DNA of 64,000 nt from NCBI RefSeq assembly GCF_009883635.2, contig NZ_CP026115.2, positions 2,976,001 through 3,040,000 of the forward strand. Reading direction: 5' to 3'. The DNA is from Pseudomonas putida (GTDB taxonomy: Bacteria; Pseudomonadota; Gammaproteobacteria; Pseudomonadales; Pseudomonadaceae). The notes below the pieces were generated by a model. That model was not told where the DNA came from. It searched no databases and saw nothing but the letters and a program-made list of their open reading frames with translations. The first letter of the stretch is position 1; the number at the start of each line of letters is the position of its first letter. This document shows positions 29,161 to 40,882 of this stretch, one piece after another. The position numbers and the translations under genes were made by a program.

Positions 29161-29193
29161 TAGGCCAGCACAGGCAACACAAACCCAACTGTT

Positions 29194-29210
29194 GATAATG
29201 ATTCTCGACT
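29194..29210 (+). promoter_or_regulatory. Fur box ahead of the ECF sigma gene
   Basis: GATAATGATTCTCGACT matches the first half and centre of GATAATGATWATCATTATC. It lies 45 bp upstream of the start codon, which implies iron-repressed expression of the signalling genes. Confidence 0.6.
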
Positions 29211-29254
29211 ACAGGTAACATCGCCGCCCCCGAAACACTCTGGCATACCACCCC

Positions 29255-29755
29255 GTGGCGGACGACAAACTCCAGCTCTACCTGGCCCATCGGGCGGCAT
29301 TGCTCGACTATGCCGCGCCGATCGTCGGCTGCCGCGCGCGTGCCGAGGATGTGGTGCAGGAAGCCTGGCTGCGTTTCAGCCGCCAGCAGGACGATGCCGA
29401 CATCCGCCACCCCGCCAGCTACCTGTATCGCATCGTGCGCAACCTGGCCCTCGACCAGACCCGCCGCAGTGCCACCGAAAAGGCCCAGCCTGGCGGCGAC
29501 GAGATCCTCGCCGAGTTGCCGTCCAGCAGTGCTTCGCCCGAACAGGCGGTCACCCAGCAAAACGAACTCAGCGCCATCAGCCGCGCGCTCGAGGAACTGC
29601 CCCTGCGCACCCGTGTGGCCTTCGAGATGCACCGCCTGGGCGGGCATACCCTGCAAGAAGTGGCCAGCCATTTGAACGTTTCGGTCAGCCTGGTACACCA
29701 GTTGGTGCGCGACGCCCTCAGCCACTGCATGGCGCGGCTGGAGGATGACTTGTGA
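29255..29755 (+). CDS. FecI-like ECF sigma factor
   Basis: The 166-residue sigma factor has sigma2 (LDYAAPIVGCRARAEDVVQE, about residues 17-36, followed by AWLRFSRQQ) and sigma4 (LRTRVAFEMHRLGGHTLQEV, about 120-139) domains of the iron-starvation type. The start is GTG with no clear ribosome site. The fecR gene follows 97 bp later, and a signalling TonB receptor lies in the same region. These fit a cell-surface signalling unit in which the occupied receptor releases the sigma factor to transcribe the receptor operon. Confidence 0.88.
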   Translation: MADDKLQLYLAHRAALLDYAAPIVGCRARAEDVVQEAWLRFSRQQDDADIRHPASYLYRIVRNLALDQTRRSATEKAQPGGDEILAELPSSSASPEQAVTQQNELSAISRALEELPLRTRVAFEMHRLGGHTLQEVASHLNVSVSLVHQLVRDALSHCMARLEDDL

Positions 29756-29852
29756 AAAAACACCAGGCTGCCGCGTCTTTTGCTGAACGGGGCGACTCTG
29801 TGCGACCCTTCGCGGCCTTCGCACCTTCGAGCCCCCAGGAGCCTTGCCCGAC

Positions 29853-30806
29853 ATGACGTCAGCAGACCTCATCACCCGTCGCCGCGAGCAGGCCCTGGAC
29901 TGGCTGCTGCGCTTGCAGCAAACACCGCACGACGCACAGCTGCGCGGTGAGTTCGAGCAGTGGTGCGCGAGCGACGCGGCCAACACCGAGGCCTATCGCA
30001 AGGCCGAGCGGGTCTGGCAGCTCACTGGGCAGCTGGCGCCGACCACTACCGAGCAATGGCCCAAGGCGCCGGTGGTGCAACTACCGGCGCGGCGGCGTCG
30101 CTGGTGGCTGGGCGCTGCTGTTGCTGCCTGCCTGCTGATCGCCGTCGCACCCTCCTTGAGCCTGCGTCTGCAGGCCGACTACCGCACCGCCCAGGGCGAA
30201 ACTCGCGATATCACCCTGGCCGACGGCAGCGTGGTGCAGATGGACAGCGACACAGCCATCGCCGTTGACTATTCCGGCGATCATCGCGACGTGAAACTGC
30301 TCACGGGCCAAGCGTTCTTCGAGGTCAAGCCCGACAAGGCCAAGCCGTTCCATGTGCGGGCCGATGCGATCAAGGTGGCGGTGACCGGCACCGCCTTCAA
30401 CGTCGCGCTGCGGCCGGGCAGGGCGGGGGTAGATGTGCAGCATGGCTCGGTGCGGGTAGAGGATGTTGTTGATGGGCATGTGCTCTCGGATGCCCTCACG
30501 ACTGGTGAGCGCTTGCTTTATGTCGAGGGCATCGTACAGGTGAAAACCTTCGTGCCTTCGCAGGCAGCGGCTTGGCGTCAGGGGCAGTTGATTGCCGATG
30601 ACCAGCGGGTTGCCGAACTTGTGCAGGAGCTGGCGCAATACCTGCCGGGCCAGGTGGTGCTGCGCGATGAGGCGCTGGGCAACAAGCGCGTCACCGGGGT
30701 TTATGACCTGCGCAAGCCTGAGGCAGCCTTGCGCGCGGTGATCCGGCCGCATGGTGGAGAAGTGCGCAGTTATGGGCCTTGGCTGCTTGTGCTGAGCAAG
30801 CCTTGA
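29853..30806 (+). CDS. FecR-like anti-sigma / signal transducer
   Basis: A 317-residue inner-membrane protein. The cytoplasmic N-terminus with the DUF4880-like motif QALDWLLRLQQ, then EFEQWCASDAANTEAYRKAE, binds the sigma factor. One membrane span (WWLGAAVAACLLIAVAPSL, about 85-103) follows. The periplasmic FecR domain has ADGSVVQMDSDTAIAV and ITGTAFNV-like VTGTAFNVALRPG. The C-terminal part (YLPGQVVLRDE) should contact the STN domain of the receptor. ATG 29853 has AGGAG 11 nt upstream; the TTG at 29844 is too close to it. Confidence 0.9.
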   Translation: MTSADLITRRREQALDWLLRLQQTPHDAQLRGEFEQWCASDAANTEAYRKAERVWQLTGQLAPTTTEQWPKAPVVQLPARRRRWWLGAAVAACLLIAVAPSLSLRLQADYRTAQGETRDITLADGSVVQMDSDTAIAVDYSGDHRDVKLLTGQAFFEVKPDKAKPFHVRADAIKVAVTGTAFNVALRPGRAGVDVQHGSVRVEDVVDGHVLSDALTTGERLLYVEGIVQVKTFVPSQAAAWRQGQLIADDQRVAELVQELAQYLPGQVVLRDEALGNKRVTGVYDLRKPEAALRAVIRPHGGEVRSYGPWLLVLSKP

Positions 30807-30843
30807 GATCAGCGGGGGCCCGTGTGTTCGCCGTGAGATTTTA

Positions 30844-31088
30844 GCGCCTGTGAGATCGAGCGCCGCCCGCGCGGCGCATCGCGAGCTGGCGCTCGCTTCT
30901 ACGTTTATTTACGGCCAGTAACACCTGTGACAGGCGCGCGCGACCGCTTTGTTTGCTCGACGCGATATCGAGAAATGCATCAAGGCGTTCGCGCGCAAAT
31001 CCCCCAGGAATAATTGGCCCGAAACAACGTAGGAGCGAGCGCCAGCTCGCGATGCGCCGCGCGGGCGGCGCTCGATCTCCCAAGCGCC
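30844..31088. repeat. Long-armed inverted repeat (REP-like family 2)
   Basis: The arms 30844-30905 and 31026-31088 are near-perfect reverse complements of about 62 bp. The core is gatcgagcgccgcccgcgcg, and the arm ends in gtaggagcgagcgc. About 120 bp of unrelated sequence separates them. The family differs from the classic REPs and shares its gagcgagc core with the pair at 51295-51390. The spacer codes for nothing convincing. Confidence 0.75.
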
Positions 31089-31202
31089 AGAGCACTCATG
31101 ACGGGCACCTCTAAAACCCAACACGATCCCCCAAAAAAATAATTTCACAATTTCCTGAAAATTCCTCGCACTGCCCCGTCTTCTCCCCCGCGCGCAACAA
31201 CT

Positions 31203-31219
31203 GATATCGATTCGTATTC
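31203..31219 (+). promoter_or_regulatory. Possible Fur box ahead of the TonB receptor
   Basis: GATATCGATTCGTATTC has partial agreement with the Fur hexamers and lies 41 bp upstream of the receptor start. It is a weak match. Confidence 0.35.
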
Positions 31220-31259
31220 AATTTTGCTGCCCGGCGACTGTCCGGGGCGGGGATGTGGG

Positions 31260-34100
31260 ATGACTCAAACAACAAGCCGGAAGCCGCGCAGTGCGCGGGG
31301 TTGGTCGTTGCGCCTGAAATCTGTGGCGGGGGCCGGGGTGCTCGGCATGTGCAGTGTGCTGGCGATGCTGCCTGCGTCTGCCGAAGAAGCGACCCAGCCA
31401 GGTTCGGAGCTGGCCCAGGTCCACGCGTTCGACATTCCGGCACAGAAACTGGCCATCGCCCTGATCACCTTCGGCCAGCAAAGCGGCCTGCAGGTGTCGG
31501 TCGACCCGGACCTGCTCGAAGGCCAGCAGTCCACCGTCGTCAGCGGCCATCTGAGCAGCGAGGCTGCGCTGGCTCAGCTGTTGCTGGGCACCGGCATCAC
31601 CTGGGACTACGAATACGGCACCCTGATGTTTCGCCTGCTGCAGGCCGACAACGGTGCCATCGAACTGCACAACACGGTGATCCTCGGCGACACCGAAGAG
31701 AACAGCTACATGGGCGCCAAGGTCATTGACCGCAAGGCGATCCAGGCCTTCCCCGGTGCCAACGGCGATATCACCACCCTGCTGCAGATGCACCCCAGCG
31801 TGCAGTTCAGCACCGAGCAGAAAAGCTCCAACACACCAGGCGAAATCGACCCTGCCGACATCAGCATCAACGGCGCCAAGTTCTACCAGAACAACTTCAT
31901 GATCGATGGCATCTCGATCAACAACGACCTCGACCCCGGCGCCCATGGCTACAACGAAACCCGCCAGTTCGACTCGGCGCCCAGCCGTTCGCACGGTATC
32001 GCCCTGGACGCCGACCTGCTCGAGGAGATCAAGGTCTACGATAGCAACGTGCCGGTCGAGTACGGTGGCTTCAATGGCGGTGTGGTCGATGCCATCACCC
32101 GTCGCCCCAGCCACGACCTGCATGGCAAGCTGTCCTACGCCATGACCCGCTCGGAATGGACGAGCTACCACATCACCCGCGAAAACAAGGAAACCTTCGA
32201 CACTTCGTCGAACGAGAAGAACCAGCCCGAGTTCACCAAGACCACCTTGCGCGGCACCCTCGAAGGGCACTTCACCGACGATTTCGGCGCCTTGTTCAAC
32301 TTCTCGCAGAAGCGCTCGTACCTGCCGCTGCGCACCTATGCGAATGGCTACAACAGCCCTGACAACGACAACGAACAGGAGCAGACCCGAGCACTGGACA
32401 ACTTCCTGCTCAAGACCTACTGGAACGTCAACGATCGCCTGACCCTGGACACTTCGATCGTCTACGCCCCGCAAGAAAACACCTACTACCGCGAGGACTA
32501 CCGCGACTCCGGCTACACCAACATCAACGGTGGCTGGCAGGGCTCGTTCAAGGCCATCTACGAGGGCGACAACGCACGCTGGACGCAGCAACTGGCGGTG
32601 GGCAACCTGTATGCCTCGCGCGACTCCGACCGCAACCAGGAGATCAAGTGGTACTGGTCCGACAGCAAGGACTGGGGCAACCCTGACGACAGCAACGCGC
32701 GCAGTGCCGAAGGCGGGTTCGGCAGCCTGTACCAGACCCAGCGCAGCATCGACTACAAGCTCAAGGCCGACTGGCAGACCTTCAGCGTCGGCGCGGCTGC
32801 CCACAGCCTGACCACCGGCCTGGAGCTGGGTTATCAGCGGGCAAGCTGGGAACGTGAGGATGACGCCCTGTCGATCACCACCTTGAAGCGTGACAACGGC
32901 GTGTGCAGCGGCAGCGACCCCTGGTGCTCGAACGGCCTGTTGCTCAACGGCAATAACCGCCAGTGGGGCTCGGCGATGATGGTCTACGGGGCTGGCAAGA
33001 TCGACATGACGCAGAAGAAGTACGCGCTGTTCGTCCAGGACGAAATCGGCTACGGCAACCTCACACTGCGCCCCGGCTTGCGATTCGAGGGCGACGACTA
33101 CATGGAGAAGAAAAGCCTGGCGCCACGCTTTGCCGGCGATTACGACTTCTTTGGCGACCGCAGCACGGTACTGGTGTTCGGTGCCAACCGCTATTACGGC
33201 CGCAACCTGTTCAAGTATCGCCTGGCCGACGGCCGCCAGCAGTTCACCTCGCGCTATACCCGCGCCACGCAGACCAGCGATTGGGTCCTGTCCAGCCAGA
33301 ACAAGAACATGAGCAAGTTCTCCAGCATGGACATCCCCTATGACGATGAATTGATGCTGGGGCTCAACCAGCGCTGGTTCGACACCGAGTTCCAGCTCAA
33401 GTACGTCAACCGTAAGGGCCATGACCAGATCTACCGTACCCGGCCTTACTACAACCTGGATGCCAAGGATATTCCCGAAGGCTACAGCAAGGACTACTAC
33501 GCCTACCTCAACGCCGGCACCAGCGAGACCGAAAATATCAGCCTGACCGTCACGCCGATGCAGCCCCTGCGCTTCAGGGGTACCAGTACCAGCGTGCAGC
33601 TGGCCCTGGACTGGTCGCGGACCAAAAGTGGCTACGGCGCGACCTACGAGGCCGGCCTGGATGGCGACGAGCTGGCCGGCAACGATGTGGTGCTCGACGG
33701 CAAGCGCATTCCCTACAACGAACTGCCGGGCAGTGATTACAACCGGCCATGGACCGCGCGGCTGACCACCATCACCGACATCCCCCAGTGGAACCTGTCG
33801 ATCAGCAACTTCCTTCGCTACCGCGGTGCGTACGACCAGGTCGTCAACCTGGATGAGGACATCGAGGTCGACGGCGAGGTGCTCAGCCGCTACGAAACCG
33901 TGGCCACGCCGGCGGCCCCGACCTGGGACATGAAGCTGGCCTGGGACATCCCCACCGGCAAGGACCAGGCGTTCTTCGTCAACGTCGATATCACCAACGT
34001 TACCGACAAGGTCAACAAGATCACCAGCCGCGAGTCGGTGAGCCTGGTGAGCTACGAAGTCGGCCGCCAGTACTGGCTGGAAGTCGGCTACCGCTTCTGA
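31260..34100 (+). CDS. TonB-dependent receptor with STN signalling domain (FusA/YddB-like)
   Basis: A 946-residue outer-membrane receptor. A twin-basic signal region with hydrophobic core SVAGAGVLGMCSVLAMLPAS ends at about residue 39. An STN domain follows (about 52-130: HAFDIPAQKLAIALITFGQQ, then SGLQVSVDPDLL). The plug then has SIDGAKF-like ISINGAKFYQNNFMIDGISI, and the long barrel ends in a terminal YRF. The STN domain marks it as a transducer for the FecI/FecR pair upstream. The M16 protease and ABC exporter genes follow directly, the arrangement of protease-associated protein import (Pectobacterium FusA, E. coli YddB). The substrate is probably a small protein such as a ferredoxin-like or haem protein; this is inference. 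ATG 31260 is preceded by GGGG/GGATG; the 31224 reading adds an atypical Cys-rich lead. Confidence 0.85.
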   Translation: MTQTTSRKPRSARGWSLRLKSVAGAGVLGMCSVLAMLPASAEEATQPGSELAQVHAFDIPAQKLAIALITFGQQSGLQVSVDPDLLEGQQSTVVSGHLSSEAALAQLLLGTGITWDYEYGTLMFRLLQADNGAIELHNTVILGDTEENSYMGAKVIDRKAIQAFPGANGDITTLLQMHPSVQFSTEQKSSNTPGEIDPADISINGAKFYQNNFMIDGISINNDLDPGAHGYNETRQFDSAPSRSHGIALDADLLEEIKVYDSNVPVEYGGFNGGVVDAITRRPSHDLHGKLSYAMTRSEWTSYHITRENKETFDTSSNEKNQPEFTKTTLRGTLEGHFTDDFGALFNFSQKRSYLPLRTYANGYNSPDNDNEQEQTRALDNFLLKTYWNVNDRLTLDTSIVYAPQENTYYREDYRDSGYTNINGGWQGSFKAIYEGDNARWTQQLAVGNLYASRDSDRNQEIKWYWSDSKDWGNPDDSNARSAEGGFGSLYQTQRSIDYKLKADWQTFSVGAAAHSLTTGLELGYQRASWEREDDALSITTLKRDNGVCSGSDPWCSNGLLLNGNNRQWGSAMMVYGAGKIDMTQKKYALFVQDEIGYGNLTLRPGLRFEGDDYMEKKSLAPRFAGDYDFFGDRSTVLVFGANRYYGRNLFKYRLADGRQQFTSRYTRATQTSDWVLSSQNKNMSKFSSMDIPYDDELMLGLNQRWFDTEFQLKYVNRKGHDQIYRTRPYYNLDAKDIPEGYSKDYYAYLNAGTSETENISLTVTPMQPLRFRGTSTSVQLALDWSRTKSGYGATYEAGLDGDELAGNDVVLDGKRIPYNELPGSDYNRPWTARLTTITDIPQWNLSISNFLRYRGAYDQVVNLDEDIEVDGEVLSRYETVATPAAPTWDMKLAWDIPTGKDQAFFVNVDITNVTDKVNKITSRESVSLVSYEVGRQYWLEVGYRF

Positions 34101-34127
34101 CCCCATAACAAAACCGTGGATAACCTG

Positions 34128-36911
34128 ATGAACAAGCTCATCGCGGGCCTGCTCGGCCCGATGCTGCTCGGCGCTTGCGCCACAGTGACCGAACCCGACG
34201 CGCCACTGCCCTGGGATGCCCAGGTGGTGCATGGCCAATTGGCCAATGGCCTGGCCTATCGCCTGGTACGGGAAACCTCGCAACCCGGTCGCCTGGACCT
34301 GCGCCTGACGGTCAAGGCCGGTTCTGTGGACGAGGCCGACGACCAGGTCGGCGTGGCCCACCTGGTAGAACACCTGGCCTTCCATGGCCGCGCTGGCGGC
34401 GAACAGAACGTGCGCCAGCGCATGACTGACCTGGGCTGGGTCCAGGGCCGCCACTTCAACGCGGTGACCAACTACGAGCGCACCCAGTACCTGATCGGCC
34501 CGCCCGCTGGCGTGCGCCAGGCCCCGCAGGCATTGCAGGCGCTGGCCGATCTGGCTTTCGCTCGCGACTACAACGCCCAGGACCTGGAGCGTGAGCGGCC
34601 GATCGTGATCGAGGAATGGCGCGGCGGGCTGGGTGTGGCGCAGCGCATGAACGAGCAGCGCACGGCGTCGCAAAGGGTCGGCTCGCGGTACCCTGAGCAC
34701 CGCACCATCGGCAACGAAGGCGCCATTCGTGCGGCCACCCTGCAAAACCTGCAGGCCTTCCAGAACCGCTGGTACCTGCCCAACAACATGGTGCTGTCGG
34801 CAGTCGGCGACTTTGATCCCCAAGTCCTGCTGGTGCAGATCGAGCAGGCGTTCGGCGCGGCCAGGCCCGGAAGCGTTCCGAGCCGCGAGCAGCGCGAACT
34901 GCCACTGGACAAAAAGCTGAAGGTGTTTCGCCTGCAGGACTCGCAGTCAGGCAGCAACCAGGTGGCGATGCTGTTTCGTTCCCATGAGCCGGACAGCCGC
35001 GGCACTACCCGCGCTGCACTGCGCGAGCGGCTGATCGACCGCATGACGCTCGCCGCGATGCTCGACAGCCTGCGCCGCCAACCGCTGCAAGCGGGGGTGC
35101 GCAGCCTGATCGTGCAGAAGACCCTGATCGGTGCACACTCCACCGTGCTCGGCATCGCCGCAGGTGTCGAGGGCCAGGCCCACGACCAGGCCTTGGAGCA
35201 ATTGCTGACCGAGGTCGAGCGCCTGCGCCAGCACGGTTTCAGCGGAACGGACCTGCAACATGAGCGCGAACATATTCGTGCACTGGGCGACAAGACCTTG
35301 GCCAATCAGGCGTCGCGAACGTTCGAGCAATGGGTGGAGCAACTCAACAATGCCGCCGTGCAGGGGAATGCCGTCACCGAGCGGCATGCTACCGCTGCAC
35401 GCTATCTGGATGTGCTGGGCAGCATTACACGCGATGACCTCAACGACCGCCTGCGACGTTGGCTCGCCAGCCCAGACCGGGTATTGCAACTGAGTGCGGC
35501 GGGCAGCGCCACGGTTGCCCTGCCGAGCGTTGCCCAGGTCGAGGCACATCAGGCGAAGCTGGCGGCAACTGCACTGCCGGCGCCGGTGCAGGTGGCAGCC
35601 GCAACCCCATCGGCACCGCGCCTGGAAATGCCGGCCGCGCCACCTGCGGCAGCTATCGTCGAGCGCAAAGCCTTCCCTGAGCAACACGTGGAACACTGGC
35701 ACCTTGGCAACGGTGATCGCCTGGTCTGGCTCAAGCGTAATGGCCCGGAAGGCAAGTGGCTGCTGCAGGCCGAATCGTCCGCTGGCTACCACCTTGCCGG
35801 CACCCCGGCCTGGCGTCTGCAGATGGCCGCGCAACTGGCCATGCACAGCGGCCTGCCCGGGATGGATCAGCAGGCCCTGGCAACCTGGCGCCAGGAGCAG
35901 CGCGCCACGCTCGGCTTCGACCAGCAGCCCCAGCGCCTGCAACTCAACCTTGGCGCAGCACCGGAGCAACTGCCGGCGTTGATGCAGAGCTATCGGGTAA
36001 GCCAATTGGCCAGCATCGACCCGGAAGTGTTCAGCACCACGCGCGATGTCTTGCTGCAACGCCTGCGCAGCCGTCCGGATGACGTACGCGGGCTGCAGGA
36101 CAGCCGTCAGCGTGTGCTCAAGTACGGCGTAGACCACTGGCGGTCACCGGATATCGACGCGCTCGAACAATTGACCGCCGAACAGCTGAGTGCCGACTGG
36201 AAGCGCTTGGCTGGTGCGCCAGTGACCTATTACCTGATGGCGGAGGCGACGCCGGAATCGCTGGAGAAATTGGTCGGTGAACTGCTCGCGACCATCCCGC
36301 GCACAGCGCCGTTGGCCAGCCAACAGGCTTTACAACTGCCCGGCCGGCGTCGTGATGACCTGGCGATCGCGCTGGAACCGCGTGCCGTCCTGCAAGCCAG
36401 CAGCTATCAGCCCCAGGCCTGGAGCCCGGAAGCGGCGGCACGGGTAGCGGTGCTGCGCGATCTGGCCAACCAGCGGCTGAAAGCCCAGCTGCGCGGCGAG
36501 GCTGCCGGCGTGTATCGCTTGCGGTTCGAAAGCGAACTGAATGCCGACACCCAGCGCATTGAGAGCAGCTTGAGTTTCACCTGTGACCCGGCGCGGGTCG
36601 ACGAACTGTGGGCCCTGGCCCAGCAGACGTTGGCCGAGCTTCATCCGGATGCCCAATGGCTGCGTAATGAGCGCGCCGAGTTCCAGCGCCAGGAGAGCAA
36701 ACGCCGCGAAGACCCGCAAACCCAGTTCAAGCGCCTGATCCTGAGTGACCGCCGCTGGCACGACCCGCGCTACTTGCAGACTCAGGCGCAACTGCCTGAA
36801 GCCTTGAACCTGCCAGCGCTACAACAGCAAGCGAAACAGCTGTTCCCTCGTGCTAACCAGGTGCAACTGCGCGTGCTGCCGTCGCCAGCGGCGCTGGAGC
36901 AGGCGCTGTGA
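34128..36911 (+). CDS. Lipoprotein M16 zinc protease (FusC/PqqL-like)
   Basis: This 927-residue two-lobe insulinase-type protease has a lipobox LGA-C at residue 17 after the short signal LIAGLLGPMLL, so it is a periplasm-facing lipoprotein. The inverted zinc motif HLVEH is at 78-82, and the third ligand Glu lies in PIVIEEW about 80 residues later. Four M16 modules are expected from the length. Two are obvious; the second half (from about residue 500) lacks the HxxEH motif, as in FusC and PqqL. ATG 34128 gives the best signal peptide, though GTG 34116 is also open. It lies 27 bp after the receptor gene and ends 4 bp inside the ABC gene. Confidence 0.85.
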   Translation: MNKLIAGLLGPMLLGACATVTEPDAPLPWDAQVVHGQLANGLAYRLVRETSQPGRLDLRLTVKAGSVDEADDQVGVAHLVEHLAFHGRAGGEQNVRQRMTDLGWVQGRHFNAVTNYERTQYLIGPPAGVRQAPQALQALADLAFARDYNAQDLERERPIVIEEWRGGLGVAQRMNEQRTASQRVGSRYPEHRTIGNEGAIRAATLQNLQAFQNRWYLPNNMVLSAVGDFDPQVLLVQIEQAFGAARPGSVPSREQRELPLDKKLKVFRLQDSQSGSNQVAMLFRSHEPDSRGTTRAALRERLIDRMTLAAMLDSLRRQPLQAGVRSLIVQKTLIGAHSTVLGIAAGVEGQAHDQALEQLLTEVERLRQHGFSGTDLQHEREHIRALGDKTLANQASRTFEQWVEQLNNAAVQGNAVTERHATAARYLDVLGSITRDDLNDRLRRWLASPDRVLQLSAAGSATVALPSVAQVEAHQAKLAATALPAPVQVAAATPSAPRLEMPAAPPAAAIVERKAFPEQHVEHWHLGNGDRLVWLKRNGPEGKWLLQAESSAGYHLAGTPAWRLQMAAQLAMHSGLPGMDQQALATWRQEQRATLGFDQQPQRLQLNLGAAPEQLPALMQSYRVSQLASIDPEVFSTTRDVLLQRLRSRPDDVRGLQDSRQRVLKYGVDHWRSPDIDALEQLTAEQLSADWKRLAGAPVTYYLMAEATPESLEKLVGELLATIPRTAPLASQQALQLPGRRRDDLAIALEPRAVLQASSYQPQAWSPEAAARVAVLRDLANQRLKAQLRGEAAGVYRLRFESELNADTQRIESSLSFTCDPARVDELWALAQQTLAELHPDAQWLRNERAEFQRQESKRREDPQTQFKRLILSDRRWHDPRYLQTQAQLPEALNLPALQQQAKQLFPRANQVQLRVLPSPAALEQAL

Positions 36912-38566
36912 AAACCCTGCGAACGTTCTATCGCCTGAGCCGCCCGTTCTGGACCAGCCGCCAGCAATGGCCAGCCTGGCTGATGCTGGCAGCGGTGATC
37001 GGCCTGGGGCTGCTGGTGGTGCAGATCAATGTGCTGATCAACAGCTGGAGCAAGACCTTCTACGACACCCTGGCCGCGTTCGATACGGCGGGGCTGTACG
37101 GTTTGGTCGGCGAGTACGCGTTGTACCTGGGCAGCTATGTGCTGATCATCGTGGCCATGGACTACATCCGCAAAGGCCTGGAGCTGCGCTGGCGCCAGGC
37201 GATGACCGGGCGCCTGACCGATGCCTGGCTGGCGGACCAGGCCTTCTACCGTCTGGGGCTGGCCGGTGAGCCGGACAACCCCGACCAGCGCATCGCCCAG
37301 GACATCGACCTGATGGTCGGCCTGAGCATCGAGCTGGTGGCCTCCCTGGTGATCAACCTGGCGCAGGTTGGCGCGTTCATGCTGATCCTGTGGAATCTGT
37401 CGGGTGTGCAGACCTTCAGCCTGTTCGACGAGACCTTCACGGTGCATGGTTACCTGGTGTGGATCGTGCTCGCCTACACCCTGGCCGGCAGCCTGCTGAC
37501 ACACCTGATCGGCAAGCCGCTGCATGCGCTGAACTACGAGCGTGAGCATCGCGAGGCCGATTTTCGCGCGAGCCTGCTGCGCAAGCGCGACCATGCCGAG
37601 CAGATCGCGCTGTACCGGGGCGAGGCCGTCGAGCGTGAGCATCTGGCCACGCGCTTTCGCGCCATCGCCGACAACTGGCGGCAACTGATGGGGCGCGAGC
37701 GCAACCTCAGCCTGTTCACCGTCTCCTACGAACGGTTGAGCCTGATCATCCCGGTGTTCGCCGCCTTGCCAGCGTTCATGGCCAAGACCATCACCCTGGG
37801 TGGGCTGATGCAGATCCGCAGTGCCTTCAACGCCGTGCACGGCTCGCTCAGCTGGTTCATCAAGCTCTATCACAAGCTGGTGCGCTGGAGTGCGGCATTG
37901 CAGCGGCTGGAGCAGTTTGAGCAGGCGATTGCCGAGAGCCGTCAGCAGGTGCTTGCGGCGCCACAGGGGCAATGCTTGTGCACTCAAGGGCTGACGCTGT
38001 GCAAGCCCGATGGTGGTGTGCTGCTGGAAACACTCGACCTGCGCGTCGGCCAGGGCGAATGGGTGCGCCTTGGCGGACGCAGCGGGCTGGGCAAGTCGAC
38101 CTTGCTGCGGACCTTGCAGGGGCTGTGGCCTTATTGCCTGGGCGAGTGGCAGTTGCCGCCGGGGCGCAGTTTGCTGTTGCCGCAGAAGCCTTACCTGCCG
38201 CGCATGAGTTTGCGTGGGTTGTTGGCTTATCCACAGGTTGAGGTTGTGGATGATCGGCTGTTGCTGGAAGCATTGTCCCAAGTCGGGCTCAGTGGCCGGC
38301 TGGATGATGAGCAGGAATGGGAACGGGTGTTTTCAGGTGGCGAACAGCAGCGGCTGAGCCTTGCGCGGGCACTGGTGTATCGGCCGGATACCTTGTATCT
38401 GGATGAGGCTACCAGTCAGCTCGATATGGAGAGTGCGCGAGCGTTGCTTGAGATGCTCAGGCGGGAATTGCCGGGGTGTACGGTGGTGGGGGTGACTCAT
38501 CAGGAGGGGTTGGCAGGGTTGTTTGACCGGACCTTTGAGCTGGAGAAATTGGCCGAGCCGGCGTAG
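36908..38566 (+). CDS. SbmA/YddA-type fused ABC transporter (FusD-like)
   Basis: A 552-residue protein with an N-terminal membrane domain of the SbmA/BacA fold (residues 1-330, with INVLINSWSKTFYDTLAAFD near the start and REHREADFRASLLRKRDHAE in the cytoplasmic loop) fused to an ATPase. Walker A GRSGLGKST is at about 390, FSGGEQQRLS at about 474, and LYLDEATSQLD at about 495. This is the YddA/FusD form rather than an ATPase-less SbmA. It starts with GTG overlapping the protease stop. It probably moves peptides released by the M16 protease from the periplasm to the cytoplasm (family knowledge plus context). Confidence 0.88.
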   Translation: MKTLRTFYRLSRPFWTSRQQWPAWLMLAAVIGLGLLVVQINVLINSWSKTFYDTLAAFDTAGLYGLVGEYALYLGSYVLIIVAMDYIRKGLELRWRQAMTGRLTDAWLADQAFYRLGLAGEPDNPDQRIAQDIDLMVGLSIELVASLVINLAQVGAFMLILWNLSGVQTFSLFDETFTVHGYLVWIVLAYTLAGSLLTHLIGKPLHALNYEREHREADFRASLLRKRDHAEQIALYRGEAVEREHLATRFRAIADNWRQLMGRERNLSLFTVSYERLSLIIPVFAALPAFMAKTITLGGLMQIRSAFNAVHGSLSWFIKLYHKLVRWSAALQRLEQFEQAIAESRQQVLAAPQGQCLCTQGLTLCKPDGGVLLETLDLRVGQGEWVRLGGRSGLGKSTLLRTLQGLWPYCLGEWQLPPGRSLLLPQKPYLPRMSLRGLLAYPQVEVVDDRLLLEALSQVGLSGRLDDEQEWERVFSGGEQQRLSLARALVYRPDTLYLDEATSQLDMESARALLEMLRRELPGCTVVGVTHQEGLAGLFDRTFELEKLAEPA

Positions 38567-39286: not shown

Positions 39287-40882
39287 ATGCAGAATTTAGT
39301 GAGATTTCTGGTACTTTCGAGCTTGGGGCTATTGACGGCTTGCAACTCTACTGTAGTTTCTAACGCCCCCCCCTCGAACCAGGCCGTGAAGCTATTCGAG
39401 GTACTTGATAGCAAAAAACTTTCGGCACTAAAGGTAAATCCGGAAGTGGCACCCTATCTGAACACGCTGATCAACGACCGGGCTAACGTAGAGGTCCTTC
39501 CGATCCTTATCACCACTTCGCTGGTGTCGCCAGACACCCAAGCAATGACCATACCGTTGAGCGAAAAAGAAACCGTTACGTTCCAGTTGCGAGGGGCCGA
39601 GCCGCCGGCACCGGATATGGTGGGGTGGGTGGGCGATGTGGCACCGGATCGAAGACAGCGCTTCACGTTGCGTTCGGAAATGGATTTCGACCCCTTGAAA
39701 TGGATCTCCCTTGTTCGTGAAGGCGAAAAAGTGGTGGGCAACATACATGTTGATGGCCGGTTGTATCGCTTGGACTACGTGGGTGATGGAAAGCACGTTC
39801 TGATAAAAGTTGATGAGTCTAAGTTGCCACCGGAGGCTGAACCGTTACTCGGGCCCGACTCAGGCAGAAAAGACCCCGCCGTTGGCAAGCAGCCGCAGTC
39901 GGCACATAGCACCATCCGTGTATTGCTCGTGTCCACCCTGCAGTCCAGAGCAGCGAATCCTAACTATCGGATGCCCTTTGCCCAAGCGCTGCAAGATGCC
40001 AATCTCTACATGAAGAACAGTAATGTGGCGATCACTTATGAGCTTGCAGGCTTTTACGATGCTGATTATGACGAAACAGGAAGGGCTTACTTCGATCAAC
40101 TTAATGATATGCGCTTGGCGAAACCGTTTGGGCCTGACCTTCTCAGGGTGCGGGATGCCTTGCGTGCGGATCTGGTTTCAATGTATTCAACGGCCAGAGA
40201 ATACTGTGGCCAGGCATGGTTAAATGCATCCAAGGCTCAAGGGCATTCAGTGGTTTCATGTTTTGGAAGTTTGGCTCACGAGCTGGGACATAATATTGGG
40301 GCGGATCATAACTGGCATGAGGGCGACCCGGTTCGCAATCCGCCTTATATGTACGGCTATCGCTATCAAGCAGGGACTCCACGCTTTAGCACGCAGATGT
40401 CCTATGCATGTAACCCGGCATGTCCACGGATACCCTATCATTCCAACCCTGATGTGACTTATGAGGGTATTCCTGTTGGAACGCGAGAGCATCATGATGT
40501 CGCGCGACGGTTCAACGATCGCAGGGAAGTAGTTGCGAATTTCTACCCCAATTCTCTAAGCGTGGCGCTCAGTAACTCAATGAGGACATGTGAGTTTGAA
40601 CATGATGTTGGCGGGAGTAGTGCTGTTGCAGATAAGTGTGATTTCTTTGCGGATAAGCAAATTGGTATTGTTACGGTCGTGGATGTTCCGGAAGGTGTAA
40701 GTTTTGCAATAAGTGAGGGTGGCAAAAAATGGCGGAGTTATCGGGCAAAGACATTCTTGCCTTCACTGCTGGTAACACCCTTAAAAGCTGATCCTGCGCA
40801 CTATCCTAACGTAGAGATAATAGAAGGTGGTGAGGCCATGACCGGCCATGTCACTACTGTCTCTAGTTCTTTTGGTGAATGA
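39287..40882 (+). CDS. Lipoprotein zinc metalloprotease (metzincin, M12-like)
   Basis: The 531-residue secreted lipoprotein has a lipobox LTA-C at residue 19 after FLVLSSLGLLTA. The extended zinc motif HELGHNIGADHN (about residues 332-343, HExxHxxGxxH) and the downstream Met-turn TQMSYAC (about 370) place it among the metzincins, near the reprolysin/M12 type. The first half (about 35-200) is a beta-rich prodomain or substrate-binding region. Its base composition is visibly poorer in GC than its neighbours, especially in the last third, so it may have been acquired. It is monocistronic. The target is unknown. Confidence 0.75.
   Translation: MQNLVRFLVLSSLGLLTACNSTVVSNAPPSNQAVKLFEVLDSKKLSALKVNPEVAPYLNTLINDRANVEVLPILITTSLVSPDTQAMTIPLSEKETVTFQLRGAEPPAPDMVGWVGDVAPDRRQRFTLRSEMDFDPLKWISLVREGEKVVGNIHVDGRLYRLDYVGDGKHVLIKVDESKLPPEAEPLLGPDSGRKDPAVGKQPQSAHSTIRVLLVSTLQSRAANPNYRMPFAQALQDANLYMKNSNVAITYELAGFYDADYDETGRAYFDQLNDMRLAKPFGPDLLRVRDALRADLVSMYSTAREYCGQAWLNASKAQGHSVVSCFGSLAHELGHNIGADHNWHEGDPVRNPPYMYGYRYQAGTPRFSTQMSYACNPACPRIPYHSNPDVTYEGIPVGTREHHDVARRFNDRREVVANFYPNSLSVALSNSMRTCEFEHDVGGSSAVADKCDFFADKQIGIVTVVDVPEGVSFAISEGGKKWRSYRAKTFLPSLLVTPLKADPAHYPNVEIIEGGEAMTGHVTTVSSSFGE

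Follow-up and report, generated by a model that had tools for sequence, protein, structure and literature searches.

The five consecutive genes described here probably couple the uptake and digestion of a foreign protein, likely one that carries iron, to a switch that senses at the cell surface and would start the machinery when that protein is there. They lie in a stretch of 64,000 nucleotides (nt), here called the window, from Pseudomonas putida (contig NZ_CP026115.2, positions 2,976,001 to 3,040,000), which comes from a 6.19 Mb single-contig genome. At 29255-38566, all on the + strand and with a Fur-like box ahead, they encode in order a FecI-type extracytoplasmic function (ECF) sigma factor, a FecR-type anti-sigma factor, a TonB receptor with an STN domain, an M16 lipoprotein protease and an SbmA/YddA-type ATP-binding cassette (ABC) fusion protein. 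The cluster is likely a protease-associated TonB import system of the FusA/FusC/FusD kind placed under FecI/FecR cell-surface signalling. Gene families, intact catalytic residues, linkage and promoter conservation, all read from the sequences, carry this interpretation.

A preliminary description of the window had named the five genes, and open reading frames (ORFs) and Pfam bear out their order, positions and families (ECF sigma; FecR; STN plus Plug; M16; SbmA_BacA plus ABC_tran). The features are as follows.

29188..29206, + strand: Fur-like box, holding TTGATAATGATTCTC, 5' of fecI; matches 13 of 19 consensus positions
29255..29755, + strand: fecI, FecI-type ECF sigma factor, 166 amino acids (aa), GTG start; Pfam Sigma70_r2 and r4_2
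29753..29779, + strand: predicted FecI-type promoter in the fecI-fecR gap, TGAAAAA-N14-CGTCTT; at most one mismatch from the receptor motif
29844..30806, + strand: fecR, FecR-type anti-sigma factor, 320 aa, with Gly182-Thr183 (TGTAFN); Pfam FecR and DUF4880
31156..31182, + strand: predicted FecI-type promoter of the receptor operon, TGAAAAT-N14-CGTCTT; genome motif scan and alignment A1
31202..31220, + strand: conserved element TGATATCGATTCGTATTCA, directly 3' of the predicted receptor promoter, weakly Fur-like; alignment A1
31260..34100, + strand: TonB receptor of the FusA/YddB family with N-terminal STN signalling domain, 946 aa; sequence, AlphaFold model and fold
34128..36911, + strand: M16 protease of the FusC family, 927 aa, lipobox LGAC, catalytic HLVEH at residues 78-82; sequence
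36908..38566, + strand: SbmA/BacA-type membrane domain fused to an ABC ATPase (YddA/FusD type), 552 aa; Pfam and solved relative 6tqe

The genes had been called overlapping or closely spaced. This is true of the last three, as the M16 and ABC genes overlap by 4 nt and 27 nt separate the receptor from the M16 gene, but not of the first part, where the gaps are 88 nt (fecI-fecR) and 453 nt (fecR-receptor). Both of these larger gaps contain a predicted sigma site. Distances and the receptor and protease lengths are counted from internal ATG starts at 31260 and 34128. REP-like (repetitive extragenic palindromic) inverted GC-rich repeats, spotted by eye, are found at 30840-31085, between fecR and the receptor promoter.

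The import genes

By sequence, the best solved relatives of the receptor are FusA (E 3e-100) and then YddB (E 9e-78), and a Foldseek search with the receptor model ranks the same two first and second; the structural alignments to solved receptors (VIA rows) leave out the STN part. Siderophore receptors give far weaker sequence matches to the plug-barrel, with fewer residues aligned and a higher root-mean-square deviation. The best solved relative of the protease is FusC (E 1.3e-169). Its M16 catalytic residues are intact in 26 of 26 rows of the protease alignment, and its export signal is the lipobox. Among solved structures the ABC fusion is closest to 6tqe (E 5.8e-80); the SbmA/BacA family is known for peptide uptake. 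The trio was originally likened to FusA/FusC/FusD and YddB/PqqL/YddA, and the matches agree, for receptor and protease by sequence and for the receptor also by fold. By these relationships the receptor-protease-ABC trio belongs with the protease-associated (FusA/YddB-type) TonB import systems.

The signalling genes and predicted promoters

A FecI-like sigma factor and a FecR-like regulator adjoin the STN-bearing receptor. The STN domain, part of the preliminary description, scores 31.0 bits in the genome search, above the Pfam cut-off of 28.4, but only 26.2 bits when the receptor is searched as a single protein. The N-terminus also matches the signalling regions of FpvA, HasR, FemA and PupB/PupA, and the AlphaFold model has a folded domain at about residues 47-127, which supports an STN assignment. 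FecI is matched by FecI/PRK-type NCBIfam models, every one below its cut-off. The C-terminal region of FecR matches an anti-sigma chain, 6ovk chain R (E 1.7e-19), presumably PupR from a structure that also holds the signalling domain of PupB. Gly182-Thr183 of FecR corresponds to the place where FoxR cuts itself, G191-T192 (PMC11637429); the motif is missing from FecR of L050, L051, L096, L098 and L099, five of the related loci considered below.

How might the cluster be switched on? A Fur box ahead of fecI had been proposed. The match is there, but alone it is modest evidence, because shuffled upstream regions reach at least 13 of 19 positions in 16 of 580 trials. Across the upstream regions of the window and 28 loci, 26 of 29 score at least 12 on the Fur consensus, compared with 59 of 580 shuffles.

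The predicted receptor promoter sits 104 bp ahead of the ATG of the receptor and is the sole exact match to TGAAAAT-N14-CGTCTT in the genome. When one mismatch is allowed there are five genome sites, the one in the fecI-fecR gap among them, against one for a reversed control pattern. All 20 loci of the clade to which the window belongs, itself among them, have the core ahead of the receptor, with a background of 46 sites in 1,984,700 bases on both strands, true sites counted in. A looser form occurs in three of three sister loci and four of six loci of other lineages, and the motif columns are invariant in alignment A1 (15 loci). The element at 31202-31220 is conserved in the same alignment, and its counterparts in relatives score 10-13 of 19 on the Fur consensus.

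The predicted fecR site has the strict core in 15 of the 20 main-clade loci. L033 and L044 have the variant GGAAAA, the gap of L042 has the strict form (seen in L109), and L045 and L046 have none. Autoregulation is absent from Escherichia coli fecIR (PMC9249621), so that a FecI site ahead of fecR would set the window apart from it.

Linkage of receptors to FecI/FecR

Relatives of the receptor were found in 15 of 149 genomes of the genus (the window's own included) and in three wider, overlapping sets: 13 of 398 genomes for the phylum, 5 of 274 for the class and 13 of 244 for the order. Twelve named loci were added via the protease and three duplicates dropped, to give an annotated set of 51 loci plus the window. 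Of these 52 FusA-family loci, many of them near relatives and so not independent trials, 31 have an STN domain, and in 29 of those FecI/FecR are no more than 6 kb from the receptor; in the 21 loci without STN this is never so. Since Pfam gives L103 a weak STN match and L106 no match, the counts could also be read as 29/32 and 0/20.

The two STN loci without FecI/FecR in this range are L042 and L106. L042 is not a true counter-example: its receptor is an open frame of 950 aa, and FecI and FecR are present about 9 kb upstream, past an insert with another receptor-like ORF. In L100 a FecI/FecR pair lies just past 6 kb, yet directly beside a different STN receptor. In one Pseudomonas genome (L109, 4600-13500), about 9 kb with another receptor-like ORF and further ORFs parts FecR from the FusA-type receptor.

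Did the wiring arise once? The receptor tree has six state changes, and an approximately unbiased test rejects a single clade of STN receptors (p 3.5e-70, on a quick tree with long branches in play); the wiring was thus probably gained or lost repeatedly. A stricter test of independent pairs is not significant (five pairs, four agreeing and none opposing, p 0.125). A second tree of 35 receptors has five changes, though two of its STN-less rows, P0169 and P0183, are possibly truncated predictions. To judge by their names, members of the L050 lineage include P. solani, P. carassii and Halomonas llamarensis, placed beside receptors without STN from Shewanella, Vibrio, Moritella and Endozoicomonas, while those of the L098 lineage belong to Marinomonas.

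The five-gene block is common to loci whose flanks are unlike those of the window (e.g. L041, L043, L045, L046 and L066). Other lineages, with the order receptor-ABC-M16 or receptor-M16, likewise keep the protease and FecI/FecR together. L047-L049 have the FecI/FecR circuit without M16 or ABC genes within 6 kb. The co-occurrence of STN with FecI/FecR and the conserved predicted FecI-type promoter before the receptor uphold the initial proposal that an import trio has been joined to signalling genes. On this strong comparative evidence for the coupling, the cluster is a conserved, repeatedly arisen variant in which protein-import machinery stands under predicted cell-surface signalling, and the signalling half is not accidental.

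Some of the records are unusual in other respects. One protein of Marinomonas pontica (P0160) is listed with STN, Plug and M16_C, a possible receptor-protease fusion or a gene-model error. In the draft genome with L044 the receptor and M16 genes are each in two frames, which may be decay or sequencing error. L028 and P0006, recorded as Pantoea sp. Ap-967 and Tr-811, have a cluster or receptor about 80% identical to the Pseudomonas one, and these names may be wrong.

Within the genome that holds the window there are 14 STN matches, 13 of them above the cut-off, and eight M16_C matches; by coordinates, STN and M16_C are neighbours only at the present locus. GbdR is encoded upstream of the cluster. 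Named relatives, P. putida W15Oct28 and P. mosselii among them, also point to Pseudomonas as the genus.

Receptor alleles

FecI of L026, L027, L035 and L037 is 97-99% identical to that of the window and the ABC protein 88-94%, yet the barrel just 55-62%. The reverse is seen in L030, where FecI is 86% and M16 71% identical, yet the plug 95% and the barrel 89%. The barrel (and STN) thus diverge or swap among these strains, while FecI and the ABC protein stay near-identical, and the receptor would seem to undergo allelic exchange inside the cassette.

Proposed mechanism and alternatives

Iron shortage would lift Fur from fecI. A few receptors would already be in the outer membrane, and binding of an external protein would alter the hold of the STN domain on the C-terminal domain of FecR. 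General proteases of the cell would then cut FecR, and FecI would be freed or activated. Through the 31156 promoter FecI would drive transcription of the receptor, M16 and ABC genes, and through the 29753 site that of fecR, which would provide feedback. The protein would cross the receptor with the help of one of the cell's ordinary TonB proteins, the membrane-anchored M16 protease would cut it in the periplasm, and the ABC protein would clear the peptides or a cofactor. Induction, a protein as substrate and iron as the gain are what this arrangement suggests, and the imported protein may be the inducer. The preliminary description suggested that import itself reports the substrate, but the reported event may instead be binding. 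A bolder form of the proposal is put forward tentatively, as somewhat short of probable: that the inducer is an intact external protein, imported whole and digested; that the circuit was gained or lost several times in gammaproteobacteria and senses other organisms' proteins directly; and that fecR, as a FecI target, makes the response a self-limiting pulse.

Could the receptor be a siderophore or small-molecule transducer of the usual kind, with M16 and ABC proteins that merely process a peptide-containing ligand, or peptides generally? To our knowledge, the well-characterised FecI/FecR circuits all respond to iron-citrate, siderophores or haem. A review of iron carriers names citrate, siderophores and haem (PMC9249621), and the circuit of L047-L049, with neither gene close by, would fit such a role. 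Against this stand the plug-barrel, which is of FusA/YddB type with siderophore receptors far behind in sequence and structure, and the protease, which is of FusC/PqqL type and not a general periplasmic one; a small-molecule role seems unlikely. The lack of nearby M16 and ABC genes in L047-L049, with the 453 nt ahead of the receptor, might also mean that the signalling genes control the receptor only and that the M16-ABC pair is an unrelated tail, the neighbours being there by chance or history. This is very unlikely given the 27-nt spacing and 4-nt overlap that tie receptor, M16 and ABC genes together, the block shared by loci with unshared flanks, and the lineages of other gene order that also keep the protease with FecI/FecR.

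The substrates might instead be peptides or small proteins taken up and destroyed as nutrients or toxins (e.g. foreign antimicrobial peptides or bacteriocins), so that the signal is a threat or food and not an iron protein. The SbmA/BacA-like membrane part of the ABC protein, from a peptide-uptake family, is in keeping with this, and a barrel swapped between alleles while fecI and ABC genes stay near-identical is what one expects of an attacked surface target. The Fur-like box before fecI points the other way, as does the iron-linked regulation of PqqL, the closest relative (PMC6793856), and we regard this explanation as quite improbable. Import of a protein, likely an iron-carrying one, under FecI/FecR control is the reading preferred here.

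The substrate

Which protein might be imported? Plant ferredoxin was considered as the default. The FusC pocket for the ferredoxin C-terminus (F1) is formed by Y298, M392 and A428 (PMC12731061); these positions are kept in the Pectobacterium-type L068/L069 and are L/T/Y in the window protease. No TonB_C (FusB-like) match was found in the window, as the preliminary description had noted, and four are elsewhere in the genome. Since the pocket is not kept and no FusB is nearby, plant ferredoxin is unlikely. Asp53 of the FusB-box of FusA (PMC13253070) aligns with Asn138 of the window receptor. These differences in pocket, Asp53 and TonB_C imply that the cluster, by its sequence, belongs with the protease-associated import systems without being, strictly speaking, a ferredoxin system like that of Pectobacterium.

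A self-encoded haemophore-like ligand was also rejected. In a comparison of the window (frames of at least 60 aa) with 24 Pseudomonas-type loci (frames of at least 70 aa), the ORFs common to the five loci with differing flanks are those of the cluster's five genes and frames that overlap these. Just downstream of the cluster, at 39287-40882, is a reprolysin-like (M12B) metalloprotease with a possible lipobox; it is not among the ORFs common to at least two compared loci.

Significance

The combination had been put forward as one not known to be described. A literature search likewise found no account of Fus-type import under FecI/FecR cell-surface signalling, the gene-context Fig 2 and S1 Table of PMC6793856 lying outside it. 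The text of that survey, apart from these two items, mentions neither FecR nor STN nor signalling, and 'sigma' occurs in it just as part of a company name; a term search of the signalling review PMC9249621 gave no FusA, ferredoxin or M16. Similar names elsewhere were set aside as precedents. The PDB model 2XEX is presumably elongation factor G. It is the closest model for the 2,148-bp 'FusA' gene of P. plecoglossicida, the product of which appears to be a translation factor (PMC8981516), and 'FUSC' in P. fragi is a fusaric-acid-resistance family name (PMC7921472).

The 2019 survey leaves open the substrates of FusA/YddB relatives beyond Pectobacterium (PMC6793856). A member under the control of a sigma factor has a reporter built in, and its substrate can thus be screened for directly: no ligand but the right one should activate the receptor promoter. 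Should that ligand be a protein, the range of cell-surface signalling would grow beyond small iron carriers and haem to include the recognition of imported foreign proteins.

Comparison with known systems

With the Fus system of Pectobacterium (FusA, FusB, FusC and FusD) the window shares a homologous plug-barrel, an M16 protease with the same catalytic residues and a fused ABC protein, and the receptor-M16-ABC order is that of the Pectobacterium-type L068/L069. These two loci, unlike the window, have no STN, no FecI/FecR and no protease lipobox; the window for its part has no TonB-like gene, Asn138 at the Asp53 position and other residues in the FusC pocket. YddB/PqqL/YddA of E. coli and the wider protease-associated systems have the same receptor and protease families, and the 2019 survey names Pseudomonas among the four clusters richest in members with FusC homologues (PMC6793856).

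The likeness to FecI/FecR/FecA-type signalling (Fec, Fox, Pup, Fpv, Has) lies in the FecI-like sigma factor, the STN-bearing receptor, a FecR with the Gly-Thr motif and a PupR-like C-terminal region, and a predicted FecI-type promoter before the receptor gene. In contrast to those systems, the barrel is of a protein-import family and the predicted target operon includes a protease and a peptide-type ABC protein. The window also differs from E. coli Fec in its predicted sigma site before fecR, fecIR there lacking autoregulation (PMC9249621). HasR/HasI/HasS is similar in that a protein ligand, the haemophore, takes part in cell-surface signalling (PMC9249621). The haemophore, however, remains outside the cell and is encoded with its receptor, whereas the ORFs that the window shares with loci in other surroundings are, among the frames compared, the five genes and overlapping frames. 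Transport can be separated from signalling in the Has system (PMC9249621).
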